A stretch of DNA of 57,184 nucleotides from Candidatus Mcinerneyibacteriota bacterium (GCA_016937175.1 JAFGWL010000011.1:1-57184); one strand, 5' to 3'. Numbered from the stretch's first letter, positions 42,800 through 51,144 are shown. The notes: a model not told the origin generated them from the letters alone. Made by a program: numbers and translations.

Positions 42800-44095
42800 A
42801 TGGTTCCTTCGGGAAATACCCGGGATCTGTTCGTCCTCGAAAACGGCCTTGCCGTGGGATACGAACAGATCCCTTCTATAAACTCCTTTAACATCGGCAT
42901 ATTCTTTCGCATCGGCTCTTTTCATGAGCCTGAAGAGATCAACGGGATCACTCATGTCATCGAACACATGCTCTTTAAGCGTACCCGGCATTACACAAAC
43001 CGGGAACTGGTCTATAAGATCGAGGGGCTGGGCGGCGATTATGATGCCTTTACAGGGTATGACGGAGTCACAGTCACCCTCAGGATACTCAACCGTTATT
43101 GGAAAGAGGCCATCGGGCTTCTCTACGAGATCATCCGCGAGGCTCTTTTTCTGGAAGAAGATTTTCTGGCGGAAAAGAAAGTCATCCTGGAGGAGATCGA
43201 GATGTACAGAGAGACGCCCCAGGATTATATCATGGAGATGTTTACTTCTTTTCTCTGGGAGGGCTCTCCCCTGGGACGGCCCATACTCGGGACAGAAAAG
43301 AGCCTGGAAGGGCTGACAGCCCGGCGCGCCAGAGATTATTTCCGTTCCTTTTTTACGGCAGCCAATGCAACTCTCTCTGTGGCCGGACAGGTGGACACGG
43401 GAGAGCTGAAAGAAGCCCTTAAGATCTTTGAATCTCTTCCTTCAGGGAAGAAAGCCGCTGAACTGAGCCGGGCCCCTGAGCAATACGGGTTGAACTATCA
43501 GAGAAACAGTACTCTCCGGCAAGCTCATCTTGTCCTCTATTTCCCTGCTGTGGATCATTTCGATAAGCGGAGGTACGCTTTTTTTGTCCTGAATGCTTTA
43601 TTGGGGGCCGCTGATTTTTCCCTGTTTAACCAGGAACTCCGCGAAAGCCGCGGGCTGGCCTATAACCTCTATTCCGATCTGATCTTTTTTCCGGGAAACG
43701 GGGTCTTCTATTTCTATGCGGGGTTCAACCCGGCACGCCTGGAGGAAGTGGAGGAGGGGCTGCGGGAGATCTTCAGTCTGTTGAAAAAAGACGGGATCTC
43801 TTTGGAACTGCTTACCATCGCAAAAAATTATGTTCTATCAAAACTGGTCTTTTCTCTGGATATCATTTATAATATTATGGAAAAGAACGGGACCTTCCTT
43901 CGCCGTTACGGGGAGTTCCCGGATTTTGACCGGACCCGGACCCTTATTGAGGATGTCAGCATGGAGGATATCAGGATACTCCTCCGGGATTTTATCTTTT
44001 CCGGGAAGTGCGGCCTGGTCTATTACGGAAAAAACAAGAAAAAGGATGTCGAAGAGACATGGAAAAAATTACAATCCGAGTTTTCCGTGATATAA
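42800..44095 (+). CDS. M16-family zinc peptidase
   Basis: 431 residues. The inverted zinc motif HVIEHM (H-x-x-E-H; about residues 53-58) and a later EEIEMYRETPQD with the third ligand glutamate mark the active N-terminal M16 domain; the second domain (about 220-430) is the non-catalytic half. Resembles Bacillus MlpA, which also follows pnp. Cytoplasmic, processing small peptides. ATG 42800 is 1 nt after the pnp stop, so its translation is coupled. It overlaps dut by 37 nt. Confidence 0.92.
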   Translation: MVPSGNTRDLFVLENGLAVGYEQIPSINSFNIGIFFRIGSFHEPEEINGITHVIEHMLFKRTRHYTNRELVYKIEGLGGDYDAFTGYDGVTVTLRILNRYWKEAIGLLYEIIREALFLEEDFLAEKKVILEEIEMYRETPQDYIMEMFTSFLWEGSPLGRPILGTEKSLEGLTARRARDYFRSFFTAANATLSVAGQVDTGELKEALKIFESLPSGKKAAELSRAPEQYGLNYQRNSTLRQAHLVLYFPAVDHFDKRRYAFFVLNALLGAADFSLFNQELRESRGLAYNLYSDLIFFPGNGVFYFYAGFNPARLEEVEEGLREIFSLLKKDGISLELLTIAKNYVLSKLVFSLDIIYNIMEKNGTFLRRYGEFPDFDRTRTLIEDVSMEDIRILLRDFIFSGKCGLVYYGKNKKKDVEETWKKLQSEFSVI

Positions 44096-44505
44096 ACGGG
44101 AAAAAAGTGGAACTACCCTGCTACATGAGCCGTCATGCCGCGGGGATGGATGTGCGCGCTGCCGAGCCCAAAGAGATCCCTCCGGGGAAAACAGCTCTTG
44201 TCAGGACAGGGCTTTTTGTCGAAGTCCCTCCCGGGTATGAGCTTCAGGTCCGGCCCCGCAGCGGGCTGGCTTTGAAACACCGCCTTCTCATTCCTAATGC
44301 CCCGGGCACCATCGATGCCGATTATCGGGGGGAAGTGGGGATCATCCTTATGAACGGCGGCGACGAGCCTTTTTTCATAGAAATTGGCGATCGGGTGGCT
44401 CAGCTTGTTTTGTGCCGGGTCTATGAAGCCCGCTGGGAAGAGTGCGACGAGCTGAACGAGACCGGCCGGGGCGGGGGAGGTTTTGGGCACACCGGGACGA
44501 AATAG
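44059..44505 (+). CDS. dut: dUTP diphosphatase
   Basis: 148 residues from ATG 44059, the usual trimeric dUTPase length. Motifs: AAGMDVRAA (1), RPRSGLALKH (2), GTIDADYRGEVG (3), RVAQLVL (4) and RGGGGFGHTGT (5). It removes dUTP and supplies dUMP. An earlier in-frame ATG (44008) would add 17 residues inside the M16 gene and is not preferred. It overlaps the M16 gene by 37 nt and the UbiA gene by 23 nt. Confidence 0.95.
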   Translation: MEKITIRVFRDINGKKVELPCYMSRHAAGMDVRAAEPKEIPPGKTALVRTGLFVEVPPGYELQVRPRSGLALKHRLLIPNAPGTIDADYRGEVGIILMNGGDEPFFIEIGDRVAQLVLCRVYEARWEECDELNETGRGGGGFGHTGTK

Positions 44506-45313
44506 ATCCGCTGCCATCTTCAGATTGATCCGTCCCCTGAATCTGGGGATCATCTTCCTTTCCTTTCTCCTGGCCTTTCATCTGGCTGAAGGGCCTCTTT
44601 TAAACAGAGACTTCATACTGATCGCTGCGTGGCTTTTTCTGGCCGCTGCGGGGTATGTCTTCAATGACATCAGCGACAAAGAGGCCGATCAAGTGAACCG
44701 TCCCGAGCGTCCCCTTCCCGGGGGATTTCCGCCCCGGGAGGCCATGCGCCTTTTGATCATTCTCGCTTCGGCGGCTTTTCTCCTGGCTTTGTTTCTTCCT
44801 TTTCCCCTCCTTCTTTTGACCCTGCTTGTGGGCTCTCTTCTGTATCTCTACAGCCGTTTGCCTGCTAAAGGCCCTTTTCTCGGAAATGTAGCCGTTGCTC
44901 TGGCCACAGCTTCTCCTTTCCTTTCTGTGATCCTGTCCCGGGGATACACTCCGCTTCTGGGGCTTGCTTTTCTCTTCTCCTTTATCATCATATGGATGCG
45001 GGAGATCGCCAAGGATTTTGAGGATATGGACGGAGACCGGAGAGCCGGGCGGAGGACTCTTCCCTTGACAGCCGGGCGGAAGCGAGGGTTTCTCGTTCTT
45101 TGGGTGTTGACTTTCATTTTAGCGGGATTTACAATGTGGGGGAGTCTCACAGTACGGGAGACAGGAGTTTATGCCCTTGTGATCATGGGCGGGGTCAATC
45201 TCTGCAATGCCGGGGGGCTGATCTCCATGAGAAGGGGGCTGTACCGGAGAGCGTCGCTGGTTTATAAATTATCCATTCTCTTGGGGATGGGAGGATTATG
45301 GCTGTCCGTATAG
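44483..45313 (+). CDS. UbiA prenyltransferase, DGGGP synthase-like
   Basis: 276 residues from TTG 44483 (GGGGGAGG upstream, inside dut). About eight membrane helices and both aspartate-rich motifs: NDISDKEADQVNRPERPLP (NDxxDxxxDxxNxPxRP; about 53-71) and DFEDMDGDRRAGRRTLP. The family attaches isoprenoid chains to acceptors. The GGGP synthase, GGR and ferredoxin genes next door make (S)-2,3-di-O-geranylgeranylglyceryl phosphate synthase, adding the second chain, the best guess. Quinone or haem prenylation is the main alternative. Confidence 0.8.
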   Translation: MGTPGRNRSAAIFRLIRPLNLGIIFLSFLLAFHLAEGPLLNRDFILIAAWLFLAAAGYVFNDISDKEADQVNRPERPLPGGFPPREAMRLLIILASAAFLLALFLPFPLLLLTLLVGSLLYLYSRLPAKGPFLGNVAVALATASPFLSVILSRGYTPLLGLAFLFSFIIIWMREIAKDFEDMDGDRRAGRRTLPLTAGRKRGFLVLWVLTFILAGFTMWGSLTVRETGVYALVIMGGVNLCNAGGLISMRRGLYRRASLVYKLSILLGMGGLWLSV

Positions 45314-45504
45314 ATTATGGGAGATGTATTTCCTGCGGGGGATGTGTGGCTCTCTGTCCCCGGGGAGCACTTCAGATGAAGTCTTTTCACCTGACTCTGG
45401 TTTCTGAACGCTGCAATGATTGCCGTTTTTGTGTCAATGCCTGTCCCGTAGGCGCCCTCTGGCCCGGTATTCCTGACTATGGGGAGGATTATGAGACATT
45501 TTGA
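45298..45504 (+). CDS. 2[4Fe-4S] ferredoxin
   Basis: 68 residues. Two cluster motifs: CISCGGCVALCP (first at about residues 8-19) and CNDCRFCVNACP (about 37-48). It transfers low-potential electrons. It overlaps the UbiA gene by 16 nt and the reductase gene by 14-26 nt. Archaeal geranylgeranyl reductases can use a ferredoxin, so it is probably the electron donor for the next enzyme. ATG 45298 follows GGGAGGA. Confidence 0.92.
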   Translation: MAVRIDYGRCISCGGCVALCPRGALQMKSFHLTLVSERCNDCRFCVNACPVGALWPGIPDYGEDYETF

Positions 45505-46657
45505 TGTTCTGGTCGCCGGTGCAGGCCCTGCAGGTTCTCAGGCGGCGCGGGTCATTGCTGAAAAGGGGTTTTCTGTCGCATTGCTGGAAAAGCGCCAGGA
45601 AGTGGGAAGCCCTGTCCGTTGCGCCGAAGGGGTCAGTGAAAAGTGGCTTTTGAAACATACAGGGGTGGAAGAACCCTGGATCGAGGCTGAAGTCAGAGGC
45701 GCTCTTTTACGTGCCCCTGACGGAACCAAAGCTGTGATGCATTATTCAGAAAAGGGTTATATCCTCGACCGGGCCCGGTTTGACAGAGACCTGGCCTGGA
45801 AAGCTGCCGACTGCGGGGCCTTTCTTCTGACCCGTGCAGCGGTGACGAAGGTCCTTCCCTATGAAGAGTTCTTTATTGTCCGCACAGACCATCCTCTTCA
45901 TCAGGAGATCAGGGCTACACTTTTGATCCTGGCAGATGGGATCGAGTCCCGGCTGGCTGCTCAGCTTGGAGTCAGGACGACACTGGCGCCGTCCGACATT
46001 GAGATGTGCCTTCAATACACCTTAGAGGGGGCTCCGCATGAGGAGGGGATGATCGAGATGGCCGGGGGGAATGAGATCGCTCCCGGAGGATATGCATGGA
46101 TCTTTCCCAAAGGAGGAAACCGGGCCAATGTGGGCCTGGGGCTTTTGGGAAGCCGTTCCCGGGCGGGATTCAACGCACGTTTTTATCTGGACCGTTTTGT
46201 GGCAGGACGTTTCCCGGATGCTTCAGTGATAAGGACTGTAGCAGGAGCCGTCTCTGCATCAGAACCCCTTGAAGAGGTCTGCGGAGAAGGCTTTATGATC
46301 GCCGGGGATGCCGCCAGATTGGCGAACCCCCTTACCGGCGCCGGTATCGGCAATGCCCTGGAGTCGGGGGCTTTGGCAGGAGAGACAGCTGTACAAGCCC
46401 TGAAAGCCGGAAAGAGAGACCGGGACTCCCTCGAACCCTACAAACAGAAGCTCATGCGTTCCATCGGGAACACATCCAAAAAGTTTTATCGGATCAAAGA
46501 GCCATTTGTCAAGTTTACGGATGAAGATATCAATAATATGATCAGAATCGTATCCAAGATCGATCCCAGCCGGGTGACCGTAGCCGGGATCCTGGAAGCC
46601 GCGTTCAAGGAGAACAAGGCGGTCCTTGCTCTCATCAGAAAGGCTTTTTTTTCATGA
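45491..46657 (+). CDS. geranylgeranyl reductase-family flavoprotein
   Basis: 388 residues from ATG 45491; ATG 45479 (four residues longer) lacks a binding site. FAD motif VAGAGPAGSQAARVIAEKG, then GSPVRCAEGVS (PxxC-type active-site segment), APGGYAWIFPKGGNRANVGL (YxWxFPKG) and FMIAGDAARLANPLTGAGIG. This is the archaeal-lipid/chlorophyll GGR family, which saturates polyprenyl double bonds. In context it would hydrogenate the chains of the ether lipid. ATG 46654 of the next gene overlaps its stop. Confidence 0.88.
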   Translation: MRHFDVLVAGAGPAGSQAARVIAEKGFSVALLEKRQEVGSPVRCAEGVSEKWLLKHTGVEEPWIEAEVRGALLRAPDGTKAVMHYSEKGYILDRARFDRDLAWKAADCGAFLLTRAAVTKVLPYEEFFIVRTDHPLHQEIRATLLILADGIESRLAAQLGVRTTLAPSDIEMCLQYTLEGAPHEEGMIEMAGGNEIAPGGYAWIFPKGGNRANVGLGLLGSRSRAGFNARFYLDRFVAGRFPDASVIRTVAGAVSASEPLEEVCGEGFMIAGDAARLANPLTGAGIGNALESGALAGETAVQALKAGKRDRDSLEPYKQKLMRSIGNTSKKFYRIKEPFVKFTDEDINNMIRIVSKIDPSRVTVAGILEAAFKENKAVLALIRKAFFS

Positions 46658-47394
46658 GCACCCTGGAAAGAAGAGTGAAAGAAGCCCGGAAAGAGAAGAG
46701 AAAGCTCCTGTGGGTTCTTATGGACCCGGACAAGCAGGAGCCGGAGAAAGCCGGGGAGTTTGCCTGTACCTGCGAGAAAGAGGGCGTCGACCTCATCCTT
46801 GTGGGAACGAGCCTGATGATGGAAGAACGTTTCCATGAGACGATCCGGGTGCTTAAGGATTTAGCCTCTCTTCCGGTCTATATCTTTCCAGCCTCTTCAC
46901 AGCAAGTCTCCCGTGATGCCGACGGGATCCTGTTTCTCAGCCTGGTCAGCGGACGTAATCCCCAGTTTCTCATAGAAGAGCATGTGAGAGCTGCCCCTCT
47001 GATACGAAAAGCCGGCCTGGACGCTGTCCCTACCGCCTACCTTCTCATCGATTCCGGAAAAGTGACTGCGGTCCATTACATGAGCCACACCTTACCTCTT
47101 CCCCGGGACAAGGAGGATATCATCGCTGCCCATGCCATGGCGGCAGAAATGCTGGGAATGAAGATGATCTATCTGGAGGGGGGGAGCGGGGCCCGTGAGG
47201 CTGTCCCCGGAGCTCTTATTAAAGCTGTCCGCAGCAGCGTGGAGATACCGGTGATCTGTGGAGGGGGGATCGATACTCCGGAAAAAGCCCGTCTGGCGGT
47301 TGAAGCCGGAGCCGATATAATCGTAGTAGGAACGGCCTTTGAACGGGATAATAGGGCGGGTCACATTCAGGCCTTCAGGGAAGCTTTGGGATGA
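46654..47394 (+). CDS. geranylgeranylglyceryl-phosphate synthase
   Basis: 246 residues, a TIM-barrel of the GGGPS/PcrB family. LLWVLMDPDKQEPEKA binds the glycerol phosphate region; YLEGGSGAREAV and IPVICGGGIDTPEKARLAVE then ADIIVVGTAFE are the diagnostic C-terminal motifs, closest in pattern to group II GGGPS. It joins sn-glycerol-1-phosphate to a polyprenyl diphosphate, the step that sets archaeal lipid stereochemistry. The chain length cannot be read here. Overlaps the GGR gene and the GT2 gene by 4 nt each. Confidence 0.9.
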   Translation: MSTLERRVKEARKEKRKLLWVLMDPDKQEPEKAGEFACTCEKEGVDLILVGTSLMMEERFHETIRVLKDLASLPVYIFPASSQQVSRDADGILFLSLVSGRNPQFLIEEHVRAAPLIRKAGLDAVPTAYLLIDSGKVTAVHYMSHTLPLPRDKEDIIAAHAMAAEMLGMKMIYLEGGSGAREAVPGALIKAVRSSVEIPVICGGGIDTPEKARLAVEAGADIIVVGTAFERDNRAGHIQAFREALG

Positions 47395-48476
47395 ATATAA
47401 TCCTTGTCGCCGGAGGTGTCCTTCTTTTTTTTTATCTTAGCGCTCTGCTTTTTCTTGCAGCAGGGGTTGTGATCAACAGGCGGAATACAAAAAAAACAGC
47501 TTCTCCTCCTGGTCTTTCTCTCATTGTCTGTGCCCGGAATGAAGAAGAACATCTTCCCGCACTCCTCCGGGCTCTCAAGGAACAGACTTTTCCCTTTGAA
47601 CCCATCTTCGTAGATGACAGGTCCACAGACGGGACAAGGAGACTTATGGAGGGTTACCCCGGAGCCGTGGTTATCTCCCTTAAAGAGGAGGAGGGAGTTT
47701 TTCAGGGAAAGAAAAGAGCCCTGGCCCGGGGCATTGAAACTGCAGGTGGAGATGTCCTTCTGCTCACGGATGCTGACTGTATCCCCCTTCCCGGATGGGC
47801 TGAAGGCATAGCTTCTCTCTTTTCAAAGGAGACGGGGCTGGTTGCCGGAGGAGCCCTCTATAGGGAAGAGAAGTGGTATCACCGGCTTATGAACCTGGAG
47901 ATGCTGGCTTTAGCTGCCTGTTCAGAAGGAGCTCTGGGATGGCAGGCTCCTCTTCTTGCCACCGGGAATAACCTGGCTTACCGCAGGGATCTCTTCTTTA
48001 AAGCCGGCGGTTTTCAGGGACTCGAGGAAATCGAGACGGGCGACGACGACCTGATGATCCAGCGGTTGGGAAAAGAGGGTGGGGGGCGTTTCTCCTTTGC
48101 CTGGCAACCCGAACTGTTCGTGAGGACGAAGGCCCAGCCCTCACTGCGCGCTTTCATCCATCAGCGGGCCCGATGGGCCTCGGGGGTGTTTCACTGGGGC
48201 CTCTCCGTCCGGCTGGCTCTCGGAGCGGTCTACCTTCTCTATCTTCTCTATTTGATGTCTCCTCTGGGTTTATTGATTCCGGGCCTTGGAACGACTATAA
48301 TAACAGGATGGGGTGTGAGTGCCTGTATAGAACTTCTTTTTCTTGCCCTTGCCCTGAAGGGTTACGGAAAGCTTTCCGCCCTTGTCTGGTATCTTCCGGC
48401 GCGGCTGCTCTTTGTCCCCTATCTCCTGGTTATGCCTCTCTGGGCGTGGGCGGGGGGTTACCGGTGGAAAGAGTGA
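47391..48476 (+). CDS. membrane glycosyltransferase, GT2 (first)
   Basis: 361 residues. N-terminal membrane helix (about 4-27), GT-A domain LSLIVCARNEEEHLPALLRA, FVDDRSTDGT, LLTDADC (DxD), TGDDDLMIQRL and FIHQRARWASG (QxxRW), then three or four C-terminal helices. The QxxRW motif marks membrane GT2/GT21 enzymes working at the lipid interface. Probably adds sugar to a lipid acceptor; here the nearest candidate is the ether lipid. Starts 4 nt inside the GGGPS gene. Confidence 0.88.
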   Translation: MNIILVAGGVLLFFYLSALLFLAAGVVINRRNTKKTASPPGLSLIVCARNEEEHLPALLRALKEQTFPFEPIFVDDRSTDGTRRLMEGYPGAVVISLKEEEGVFQGKKRALARGIETAGGDVLLLTDADCIPLPGWAEGIASLFSKETGLVAGGALYREEKWYHRLMNLEMLALAACSEGALGWQAPLLATGNNLAYRRDLFFKAGGFQGLEEIETGDDDLMIQRLGKEGGGRFSFAWQPELFVRTKAQPSLRAFIHQRARWASGVFHWGLSVRLALGAVYLLYLLYLMSPLGLLIPGLGTTIITGWGVSACIELLFLALALKGYGKLSALVWYLPARLLFVPYLLVMPLWAWAGGYRWKE

Positions 48477-48498: not shown

Positions 48499-49506
48499 AT
48501 GATATTTCTCTCTTTTCTCTACTTCTTTGTCTTTCTTGTCCTGGCCTTGGCTGTCAAAGCCTATCCTGTGAAACGCCGCCACCAGAACCTCTTTTTTTCT
48601 GTTATCGTCCCTTTTCGCAATGAGAAGCGCTACCTTGAGACCCTTTTGGATTCTCTGAAAAAACAGAGCCATCGTATGCGGGAGTTTATCTTTGTCAATG
48701 ACCATTCGGAAGACGGGGGTGATGAGCTTCTTTCAGGGGAGGAGCTGACCCTTCTCCATCTTTATGACGAATACGGCAAGCTGGCGGCTTTGGCCAAAGG
48801 GAGCCGTGTGGCCAACGGAGAGTATCTCGTTTTCTGCGATGCCGATTGTAAGCCCCGGTGGAACTGGCTTGAGACCCTCAACAAAAGAGTCCATGACGAT
48901 GCCGTCCTTTTTGCGGGTTTTATTGAGATCGAGGGGAGCCCTTTTTTTACCCTGGATATGTTCATGCTTATCGGCATCGCTGCGGGCCTGGATTTTTTCA
49001 GGATCCCCTCAAGTTGTGCCGGAGGGAATATCGTGGTCCGACGGGAAATCTATGAGGCCTTCCTGGATGAAGTAGACGGGGAGAATTCCCTCACAGAAGA
49101 TACCCTGCTGCTTCACACCATCCATAAGAAGGGATGGGGGGATTCATTTTTCTTTTTTGACCCGGACACGGTGATCAAGACCCGAGGCTATGCTACGGCC
49201 GGCGAGTTTGTCCGGCAGCGGATCCGGTGGCTCAAGGGAGGATACCGCCTGGATCTCCGCCTTTTTGTCTTTCTTTCCTTTATCTTTGTCTCTCACCTTC
49301 TTTTTCTGCTGCATCCCCTCTATCTGATCCCGGCAGCAGCGGGACAGTTTATTTTTTTGAGGACTCTGCTTAAACGGTTTCACCGGAGAAAGCTTCTCTA
49401 TCTCTTTCCCTTTTACTTCTTCTTCCATGTCATCTATACCATAGTTTCAGGAATCCTCTTTCTCTTCCTTTCGGGCGAAGTCGAATGGAAGGGACGTAAA
49501 TACTGA
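48499..49506 (+). CDS. membrane glycosyltransferase, GT2 (second)
   Basis: 335 residues from ATG 48499 (AGGAGG at 48485-48490); a start at 48382 would overlap the first GT by 95 nt and is rejected. It has an N-terminal helix, FSVIVPFRNEKRYLETLLDS, FVNDHSEDGG, FCDADCKPRW (DxD), LTEDTLLLHTI, VRQRIRWLKGG (QxxRW) and C-terminal helices. Same architecture as its neighbour but only distantly similar in sequence, so it likely adds a different sugar or linkage. Confidence 0.87.
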   Translation: MIFLSFLYFFVFLVLALAVKAYPVKRRHQNLFFSVIVPFRNEKRYLETLLDSLKKQSHRMREFIFVNDHSEDGGDELLSGEELTLLHLYDEYGKLAALAKGSRVANGEYLVFCDADCKPRWNWLETLNKRVHDDAVLFAGFIEIEGSPFFTLDMFMLIGIAAGLDFFRIPSSCAGGNIVVRREIYEAFLDEVDGENSLTEDTLLLHTIHKKGWGDSFFFFDPDTVIKTRGYATAGEFVRQRIRWLKGGYRLDLRLFVFLSFIFVSHLLFLLHPLYLIPAAAGQFIFLRTLLKRFHRRKLLYLFPFYFFFHVIYTIVSGILFLFLSGEVEWKGRKY

Positions 49507-49516
49507 AAGGAGATCA

Positions 49517-50164
49517 ATGGATCCTGCCATGATCATAACCCTCGGGGTTGCTGTCTATCTGGGATGGTCCTGGGCACTCACGCTGAAGAAAAAGAAATGC
49601 GCTTCTCTCTATTACAGGCCGCAGTCCGGGTTCGTCACCATTACCATCGACGATGTCCCCTCTGAATCCCTTGATGAGATACTGGAGTTGCTGGCCCGTT
49701 TCGGAGTCCGCGCCTTATTTTTCGTGAACGGATCCCGCTGCCGTCCTGACGGAGCCGGCGTCAAAGAGATCCTTGCTGCAGGACACACGGTGGGGAACCA
49801 CTCCTTCAGCCACTACTTCTTCTATCCGGTCTCAACCCGTGTGATCATCAACGACCTGGAACGCAATGAAGACCTGCTGGCATCCTTCGGAGTCTCCAGC
49901 CCCCCTGTCAGAACACCGCACGGTTATCATACCTGTTCCCTTGTGCGCTATCTTCATAAGAAAAAGACGCCCTTTTGTCCCTGGGATTTTATGCTCTGGG
50001 ATTTTCTCCCTCTTCCCCAGTGGGCATTAAGACGAAGCCTTGTCAGATTTATCCGGAAAGGGGGAGGGGTCTTATGCATGCATGCCCGGAAGCGTTCAGT
50101 CAAGGTGCTTGCCTTTCTCCTGGATATGCTTTATCCTGAGATGAAGGAGGATGACCAGCAATGA
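49517..50164 (+). CDS. polysaccharide-deacetylase-fold protein
   Basis: 215 residues. An N-terminal helix (about 5-21) is a signal anchor. The NodB-fold motifs are FVTITIDDVPSESLDEIL (motif 1, the DD pair), GNHSFSHYFF (HSxxH, motif 2), RTPHGYHT and VLCMHARKRSV (C-terminal His). The enzymes remove acetyl groups from N-acetyl sugars. With the two GTs it may deacetylate the sugar head group. Overlaps the next gene by 4 nt; AAAGGAG precedes the ATG. Confidence 0.87.
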   Translation: MDPAMIITLGVAVYLGWSWALTLKKKKCASLYYRPQSGFVTITIDDVPSESLDEILELLARFGVRALFFVNGSRCRPDGAGVKEILAAGHTVGNHSFSHYFFYPVSTRVIINDLERNEDLLASFGVSSPPVRTPHGYHTCSLVRYLHKKKTPFCPWDFMLWDFLPLPQWALRRSLVRFIRKGGGVLCMHARKRSVKVLAFLLDMLYPEMKEDDQQ

Positions 50165-50517
50165 AGACCGGTTCGCTCTATGCCATCCCCTATAAAGGGG
50201 GCTATCTGGCTTTTAAAGTCTTTGCCGTGACACTTACAGATGAGGCCTCCATCATCCATATCACACTCTACGCTGCGCTGTTCGACAGTCCTGAGGAAGT
50301 GGCGGTGACCCGTGAGACACCTCTTTTCCTGGCTCATCTTCCCATACGGGAGGAATTTCTGGCTCCTCACGCCACCCTCGTCTCTGAGGGGGATGTCTAT
50401 TCTGACGAGGAGCAGATCTATAAAAACTGGCTGGCCGAATGGAACGAAGGCCTGGCTTCTATCTGCTCTATCCCCCTGGGAGCCCTGCTTGATGAATTGA
50501 TCTCTGCGAAAGGGTAA
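50161..50517 (+). CDS. hypothetical protein of the lipid cluster
   Basis: 118 residues, unknown. No signal peptide or membrane helix; mixed alpha/beta character (LYAIPYKGGYLAFKVFAVTL, IHITLYAALFDSPEEVAV, ending IPLGALLDELISAKG). It begins 4 nt inside the deacetylase gene and ends 9 nt before the DedA gene, so it belongs to the operon. Nothing in the sequence allows a function. Confidence 0.7.
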   Translation: MKTGSLYAIPYKGGYLAFKVFAVTLTDEASIIHITLYAALFDSPEEVAVTRETPLFLAHLPIREEFLAPHATLVSEGDVYSDEEQIYKNWLAEWNEGLASICSIPLGALLDELISAKG

Positions 50518-50526
50518 GCTCTCTGA

Positions 50527-51144
50527 ATGGAACTGCTGCTTCTGAAACTGATAGCCATCATCGGGTCTGTCTCCTATCTGGGGCTCTTTATTTTTATTGC
50601 CTTTTTTTCATTCCTGGCGGTCTCTTCGGAATTTGTCCTCATCGGGACAGGTGTTTTGGTCTCCCGGGATATCATCCACCTCTTTCCGTCGATACTTGTG
50701 GCTTATGCTGCTGTCATCGCCGCAGACCTTCTGGCCTATTTCATCGGTTGGGGGATGCACCACGGTTTGAAGAGGATCTCTTTTTTGAAGAAAGTGCTTA
50801 ATCAGGATAGCCTCTATTTCGGCCGCCTCTGGTTCAACCGTTACGGGGTGATGTCCATTCCCGTGGCCCGGTTCATTATGGGCATCCGCTTTCAGACCTT
50901 TGTCTTTGCCGGGATCATGCGCATGGATCTCCGAAAATTTCTCCTTTATGATTCCCTGGCAAATCTCCTTTTTACCCCTCTTCTGGTCTTTCTGGGATAT
51001 AAGATGGGAGATAAGATCGTGGCGCTTCTTTCCGGATTCAAAACTCATCCCGTCATCGGGATAGCGGCGATGATCCTGTTCATTGTGGGATTTCCCCTGG
51101 CGTCAAAAATGCTTCGTAAGAAGACCTTTAAACAGGATCAATAG
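50527..51144 (+). CDS. DedA/VTT-family membrane protein
   Basis: 205 residues with about five to six hydrophobic segments. The DedA pattern includes AADLLAYFIGWGMHHGLKR, PVARFIMGIRFQTFVFAGIM and RKFLLYDSLANLLF. DedA proteins include undecaprenyl-phosphate and phospholipid flippases or scramblases. At the end of this operon a lipid-flipping role fits. The start lacks a close Shine-Dalgarno site. The last 7 bases overlap the convergent gene. Confidence 0.82.
   Translation: MELLLLKLIAIIGSVSYLGLFIFIAFFSFLAVSSEFVLIGTGVLVSRDIIHLFPSILVAYAAVIAADLLAYFIGWGMHHGLKRISFLKKVLNQDSLYFGRLWFNRYGVMSIPVARFIMGIRFQTFVFAGIMRMDLRKFLLYDSLANLLFTPLLVFLGYKMGDKIVALLSGFKTHPVIGIAAMILFIVGFPLASKMLRKKTFKQDQ

Follow-up and report, generated by a model that had tools for sequence, protein, structure and literature searches.

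A candidate archaeal-type ether-lipid operon in a Candidatus Mcinerneyibacteriota bacterium

Can a bacterial operon direct the synthesis of archaeal-type membrane lipids? The question is raised by four overlapping open reading frames at positions 44483-47394 of the plus strand in a 57,184-nucleotide stretch of DNA, hereafter the window, from a Candidatus (Ca.) Mcinerneyibacteriota bacterium (GCA_016937175.1, JAFGWL010000011.1:1-57184). The frames encode, in this order, a UbiA-superfamily protein, a ferredoxin, a geranylgeranyl reductase (GGR) and a geranylgeranylglyceryl phosphate (GGGP) synthase, GGGPS, with overlaps of 4 to 26 bp between one frame and the next. In archaea, enzymes of these families build ether-linked isoprenoid membrane lipids. 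An earlier note, made from the sequence alone, had described the four genes as a set of this kind in bacterial surroundings; all four are present with strong family matches, and the bacterial pnp, dut and M16 peptidase genes lie upstream as it stated, together with rpsO. From comparison of sequences, we give a probability of about 0.8 to the reading that this operon makes archaeal-type isoprenoid ether-linked glycerophospholipids.

In the proposed pathway, GGGPS would join a prenyl diphosphate to glycerol phosphate, and the UbiA protein, acting as digeranylgeranylglyceryl phosphate (DGGGP) synthase, DGGGPS, would add the second prenyl chain. The ferredoxin would pass electrons to the flavoprotein GGR, which would saturate the chains. 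Bacterial CdsA would activate the product, bacterial or operon-encoded head-group enzymes would then complete the lipid, and the finished ether lipid would sit alongside ordinary fatty-acid ester lipids. These reactions are predicted for all of the operon enzymes. The chains would be C20 by family, although C15 may also be used, and the backbone may be glycerol-1-phosphate (G1P) or glycerol-3-phosphate (G3P); G1P stereochemistry and C20 chains cannot be deduced from genes alone.

Assignment of the four core enzymes

The window comes from a genome of 1.88 Mb, 98.7% complete, that is a member of Ca. Mcinerneyibacteriota, which NCBI spells Macinerneyibacteriota. It was compared with two relatives, SpSt-1200 (DSCS01), of the same genus, and Ca. 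Mcinerneyibacterium aminivorans ARYD3 (VSIX01), of the same order.

The GGGPS belongs to family PF01884 (PcrB/GGGPS, 1e-39) and scores above the curated NCBIfam cut-offs of NF003198 (283 bits over 247) and of TIGR01769, the GGGPS equivalog (181 over 161.6). With the PcrB (heptaprenyl) equivalog model it reaches only 28 bits. Among solved structures, the protein is best matched by the GGGPS 4jej (6e-58). The residue proposed to limit the chain to C20 in group II enzymes is located on helix alpha3' (Fj I90, Mth V86; PMC9385802), and V85 of the window protein falls in the same alignment column. In a tree of 29 rows, the proteins from the source genome and its two relatives group together (100/98) within a bacterial group II clade (100/100), and proteins of group I/PcrB type lie across a 100/100 branch from the window protein. 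The models and the tree support a predicted activity as a group II GGGP synthase. Residue 80, in a loop near the chain limiter, is Ala (FPA) in all three phylum members and Gly (FPG) in 20 of the 21 other group II rows.

The UbiA protein matches PF01040 (Pfam, 1.3e-32). Both Asp-rich motifs that the earlier note had seen, D65x3D69 and D178x2D181x3D185, are intact within the segments N61-D62-I-S-D65-x3-D69 and R173-E-I-x-K-D178-x2-D181-x3-D185. The best solved relative is 6m31, the DGGGPS of M. jannaschii, at 2e-25, with chlorophyll synthase at 5e-10. When the predicted structural model (pLDDT 86.7, built from a three-row alignment) was searched, 6m31 and 7bpu ranked first by E-value; the fold search alone is not decisive, since the TM-score to the UbiA homologue 4od5 is equally high. 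In a 43-row tree, whose clades were named from representatives scanned against family models, the three Mcinerneyibacteriota proteins are found within a DGGGPS-like clade of bacterial sequences (96/96), archaeal DGGGPS are its neighbours, and the MenA, MqnP/UbiA, haem-O and DPPR clades stand apart from the window protein. The exact join of the bacterial clade to the archaeal rows is not resolved in this tree. A quick tree of 90 rows agrees and gives the DGGGPS group a support of 90. These comparisons support a predicted DGGGP synthase activity. Two other UbiA proteins were met on the way. The second UbiA of Ca. M. aminivorans scores above the cut-off of the PRK12884 'prenyltransferase' model (281 over 269) and stands beside the DGGGPS clade. 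The UbiA of G032, encoded 4 kb from GGGPS, falls in the DPPR clade and was rejected as a DGGGPS.

The ferredoxin has eight Cys in two CxxCxxCxxxC clusters, in agreement with the 2[4Fe-4S] type given to it in the earlier note. The GGR, likewise named there as a flavoprotein of this family, matches GGR_cat (PF22578, 2.7e-22) and passes the TIGR02032 cut-off (198 bits over 158.8); 3oz2 is its best solved relative (1e-55). Its motifs are PGGYAWIFP, which fits PxxYxWxFP, and PVRCAEG, and its start is probably the ATG at 45491, which homologues favour. In the GGR tree the window protein groups with other bacterial GGRs (96/90), and this clade is nested within the euryarchaeal GGRs. Of 80 GGR loci, 71 have a ferredoxin-like gene immediately upstream of GGR, and the window ferredoxin is likely the electron donor to GGR. 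For Methanosarcina acetivorans, the account in PMC9385802 has it that co-expression of a ferredoxin raised GGR activity in E. coli (Isobe et al. 2014). Two names among the compared genomes look doubtful: 'bacterium CSMAG_2113', whose GGR falls among those of Thorarchaeota, and 'Halobacteria archaeon UBA8915', whose proteins are close to Methanoliparum.

Divergence, missing genes and chain supply

Several results weigh against the proposed pathway. The UbiA protein is divergent and scores under every NCBIfam cut-off; its top model, PRK12882 (DGGGPS), gives 117 bits, under the cut-off of 296. EgsA/AraM, the G1P dehydrogenase, was not found in the source genome, SpSt-1200 or Ca. M. aminivorans, and a search of the source genome alone gave no CarS at E<=1. 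The source polyprenyl synthase scores as a farnesyl diphosphate (FPP) synthase (NF045485, 336 bits over 275) and is under the cut-off of the CrtE geranylgeranyl diphosphate (GGPP) synthase model. The fifth residue ahead of its first Asp-rich motif is a Tyr, and the two-residue insertion is present. As the sole polyprenyl synthase found in the source genome and in SpSt-1200 looks like an FPP synthase, the GGPP supply is a real gap.

The divergence of the UbiA protein, in a superfamily that is functionally broad, could mean that the protein is a prenyltransferase for quinones, haem or another product and that the GGGPS is a PcrB-like heptaprenyl enzyme, so that no archaeal-type diether is made. 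However, the missed PRK12882 cut-off is weak counter-evidence, because a bacterial relative well within the DGGGPS clade likewise falls short of it (221 bits) and the model is thus narrow. The earlier note had allowed for both placements; in the trees the GGGPS falls in group II and not with PcrB, and the UbiA protein falls with archaeal DGGGPS, outside the quinone and haem clades. The PDB ranking and the operon shared with GGGPS, GGR and ferredoxin point the same way. Furthermore, there is a single UbiA-superfamily gene in the source genome and in SpSt-1200 (two in Ca. M. aminivorans), so that neither genome has another UbiA left over to make quinones or haem. We regard this alternative as very improbable.

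The search for EgsA/AraM gave 127-133 bits for two archaeal control sequences. In the source genome the PF13685 matches were rejected as G1P dehydrogenases, one being an iron alcohol dehydrogenase and one PurE, and the strong match in Ca. M. aminivorans is GldA, a glycerol dehydrogenase (526 bits). Nothing scored above 51 bits in eleven further bacteria that carry GGGPS, and the matches inspected were AroB or alcohol dehydrogenases. The earlier note had listed G1P dehydrogenase, prenyl-diphosphate synthase and CarS as missing; the first and the last were not found genome-wide either, while the second is present in the FPP-type form described above. An archaeal-type ether lipid pathway was reported in Cloacimonadota and other FCB bacteria by Villanueva et al. 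2020 (PMC7852524), a precedent that the earlier note had also drawn on. GGGPS and DGGGPS of Cloacimonadota yield unsaturated archaeol lipids in E. coli, by which the first two steps were shown heterologously (PMC7852524). EgsA/AraM and CarS are the same two genes that Cloacimonadota are without, and yet their two enzymes worked.

Both G1P and G3P backbones have been discussed for Cloacimonadota, whose GGGPS used G3P in vitro too (PMC7852524). PlsY and PlsC accept both forms of glycerol phosphate (PMC13400652), which shows that bacterial lipids do not have to share one kind of backbone. Bacterial CdsA can use the archaeal substrate, by work that PMC7852524 cites. PlsY, GpsA and CdsA were found in the source genome and in both relatives, which makes a mixed membrane of archaeal-type and bacterial lipids plausible. 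Together with the trees and the conserved gene order, these genes support the archaeal-like or mixed membrane that the earlier note had put forward.

The polyprenyl synthases found, one in the source genome, one in SpSt-1200 and two in Ca. M. aminivorans, suggest another outcome, a shorter-chain ether lipid. Here the single FPP-type synthase would give C15 chains, GGGPS and UbiA would use farnesyl diphosphate, and GGR would saturate farnesyl. Both genomes with a single synthase are nearly complete. By the residue rule for chain length of prenyl synthases (PMC9385802), which covers type II GGPP synthases, the Tyr of the source enzyme is bulky at the chain-length position, and the second synthase of the more distant Ca. 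M. aminivorans has small residues there, as type II GGPP synthases do, with Ala at the fifth position and Ser at the fourth. In addition, Ala replaces the near-universal group II Gly near the GGGPS chain limiter in all three phylum members. However, the limiter itself is the usual Val/Ile, bifunctional short-chain synthases exist, and gaps in a metagenome-assembled genome (MAG) are possible. The change from Gly to Ala was dropped as a marker of C15 use, since it decides nothing when Ca. M. aminivorans, with its second synthase, has the Ala too. We consider the C15 lipid unlikely.

Gene order and downstream genes

The order dut-UbiA-ferredoxin-GGR-GGGPS-GT2a-GT2b-deacetylase-118-aa protein is kept in SpSt-1200 and in Ca. 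M. aminivorans, even though the identity of UbiA to the relatives goes down to 34%. Upstream, ribF-rpsO-pnp is kept in Ca. M. aminivorans, and the SpSt-1200 contig ends within M16. In SpSt-1200 a DedA gene follows the operon, and none was found at the corresponding position in Ca. M. aminivorans. The UbiA frame overlaps dut by 23 bp, and the whole run from dut to DedA is on the plus strand, no gap being longer than about 22 bp, an arrangement consistent with joint transcription of the operon.

The archaeal type of the genes and the MAG origin of the genome could suggest archaeal contamination or mis-assembly. However, the genes share one contig with flanking bacterial rpsO, pnp, M16 and dut, their rise in G+C is mild, and the proteins place in bacterial clades. 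Moreover, the gene order is identical in two independent MAGs. Because both other phylum members compared keep it, the operon is neither contamination nor chance; contamination was rejected on this synteny and its probability is negligible. Two further observations concern the compared genomes. At the corresponding place Ca. M. aminivorans is without the M16 peptidase gene that separates pnp from dut in the window, and DSCS01000049.1, 'Bacillota bacterium SpSt-1200', is of the same genus as the source and looks mislabelled, as it belongs to Ca. Mcinerneyibacteriota.

Table 1 Features of the operon, with predicted roles.
Feature	Position	Strand	Remarks
dUTPase (dut)	44008-44505	+	NF001862, 177 bits over 103; adjoins UbiA in both relatives
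UbiA-superfamily DGGGP synthase	44483-45313	+	TTG start; second ether bond
2[4Fe-4S] ferredoxin	45298-45504	+	Fer4 2.4e-15
Geranylgeranyl reductase (GGR)	45479-46657	+	Chain saturation; TIGR02032, PDB 3oz2
GGGP synthase, group II	46654-47394	+	First ether bond; NF003198, TIGR01769, PDB 4jej
Family 2 membrane glycosyltransferase GT2a	47391-48476	+	PF00535 2e-21; overlaps GGGPS by 4 bp; kept in both relatives; possible head-group step
Family 2 membrane glycosyltransferase GT2b	48499-49506	+	PF00535 3.9e-20; kept in both relatives
Polysaccharide deacetylase, NodB-type	49517-50164	+	PF01522 4.9e-19; kept in both relatives
118-aa protein	50161-50517	+	Pfam search, no match; kept in both relatives
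DedA/VTT membrane protein, UptA-like	50527-51144	+	PF09335 1.2e-12; UptA model 62 bits, under cut-off; possible lipid flippase

From their position, the sugar genes and DedA may, as a conjecture, point to a glycosylated product. The product could even be a minor glycolipid or a lipid carrier for surface polysaccharide export and not a bulk lipid: a prenylated glycerol phosphate would be glycosylated by the two GT2 proteins, deacetylated, and flipped by DedA. The two membrane GT2 genes, the NodB-type deacetylase gene and the DedA/UptA-like gene lie directly downstream of the core, and the first three are conserved. However, conserved neighbours may belong to different pathways, as dut, likewise a conserved neighbour, illustrates, and GGR with DGGGPS indicates a saturated diether. 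There is a small chance that this explanation holds. A bolder form of the ether-lipid pathway would be a phylum-wide, one-operon saturated isoprenoid diether with an amino-sugar head group encoded by the operon, and with C15 chains in this genus instead of C20, because an FPP synthase alone is present; we hold this to be a long shot.

Relation to known systems

Co-localisation of GGGPS and DGGGPS in bacteria had seemed restricted to Cloacimonetes (PMC7852524), and Ca. Mcinerneyibacteriota is a second bacterial phylum with it. The locus shares with the FCB/Cloacimonadota systems this co-localisation, a euryarchaeal-like GGR, a bacterial fatty-acid pathway and the absence of egsA/araM and carS. 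It differs in that the phylum is another one, GGR and ferredoxin belong to the operon as well, a single polyprenyl synthase was found instead of two, and conserved glycosyltransferase and deacetylase genes lie downstream. In four other bacterial genomes, bin522, SpSt-1139, RS_7_18 and one of Neomarinimicrobiota, GGGPS, a DGGGPS-like UbiA (RExxKDxxDxxGD) and a GGR of the bacterial clade are encoded at separate places in the genome.

Among euryarchaea, GGGPS adjoins UbiA in Geoglobus, Archaeoglobaceae, Thermoplasmatales and Methanomassiliicoccaceae, and ferredoxin is directly upstream of GGR in most loci; here, however, all four genes are joined, on a bacterial chromosome and with no archaeal-type G1P dehydrogenase found. 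In Methanosarcina acetivorans a ferredoxin gene also adjoins GGR, but downstream of it, whereas in this bacterium it is upstream. The PcrB/AraM system of Bacillus similarly uses a PF01884 member to put a prenyl ether on glycerol phosphate. However, PcrB is of group I type and handles a C35 chain (PMC9385802), without a DGGGPS or GGR step, while the window GGGPS is of group II.

In the open-access literature we found no earlier report of this pathway in Ca. Mcinerneyibacteriota, and the open-access papers that name the phylum include none on its lipids, by title or abstract. What appears to be new is the occurrence in this phylum, the complete operon in which GGR and ferredoxin are included, and the genes that follow downstream, although priority is not certain.

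Bacterial carriers cluster together for GGGPS, UbiA and GGR, which fits a single old acquisition or inheritance of the pathway in bacteria, as Villanueva et al. argued, and the locus is relevant to the question of a single entry of the pathway into bacteria. It also bears on the source of the backbone in bacteria that are without G1P dehydrogenase. The predicted pathway would extend a recent exception to the 'lipid divide' to a further bacterial phylum, little known and uncultured, and in a cleaner form, with the dedicated enzymes all gathered in a single operon and no further UbiA gene to blur the assignment. A natural mixed membrane would therefore be directly testable in this organism.

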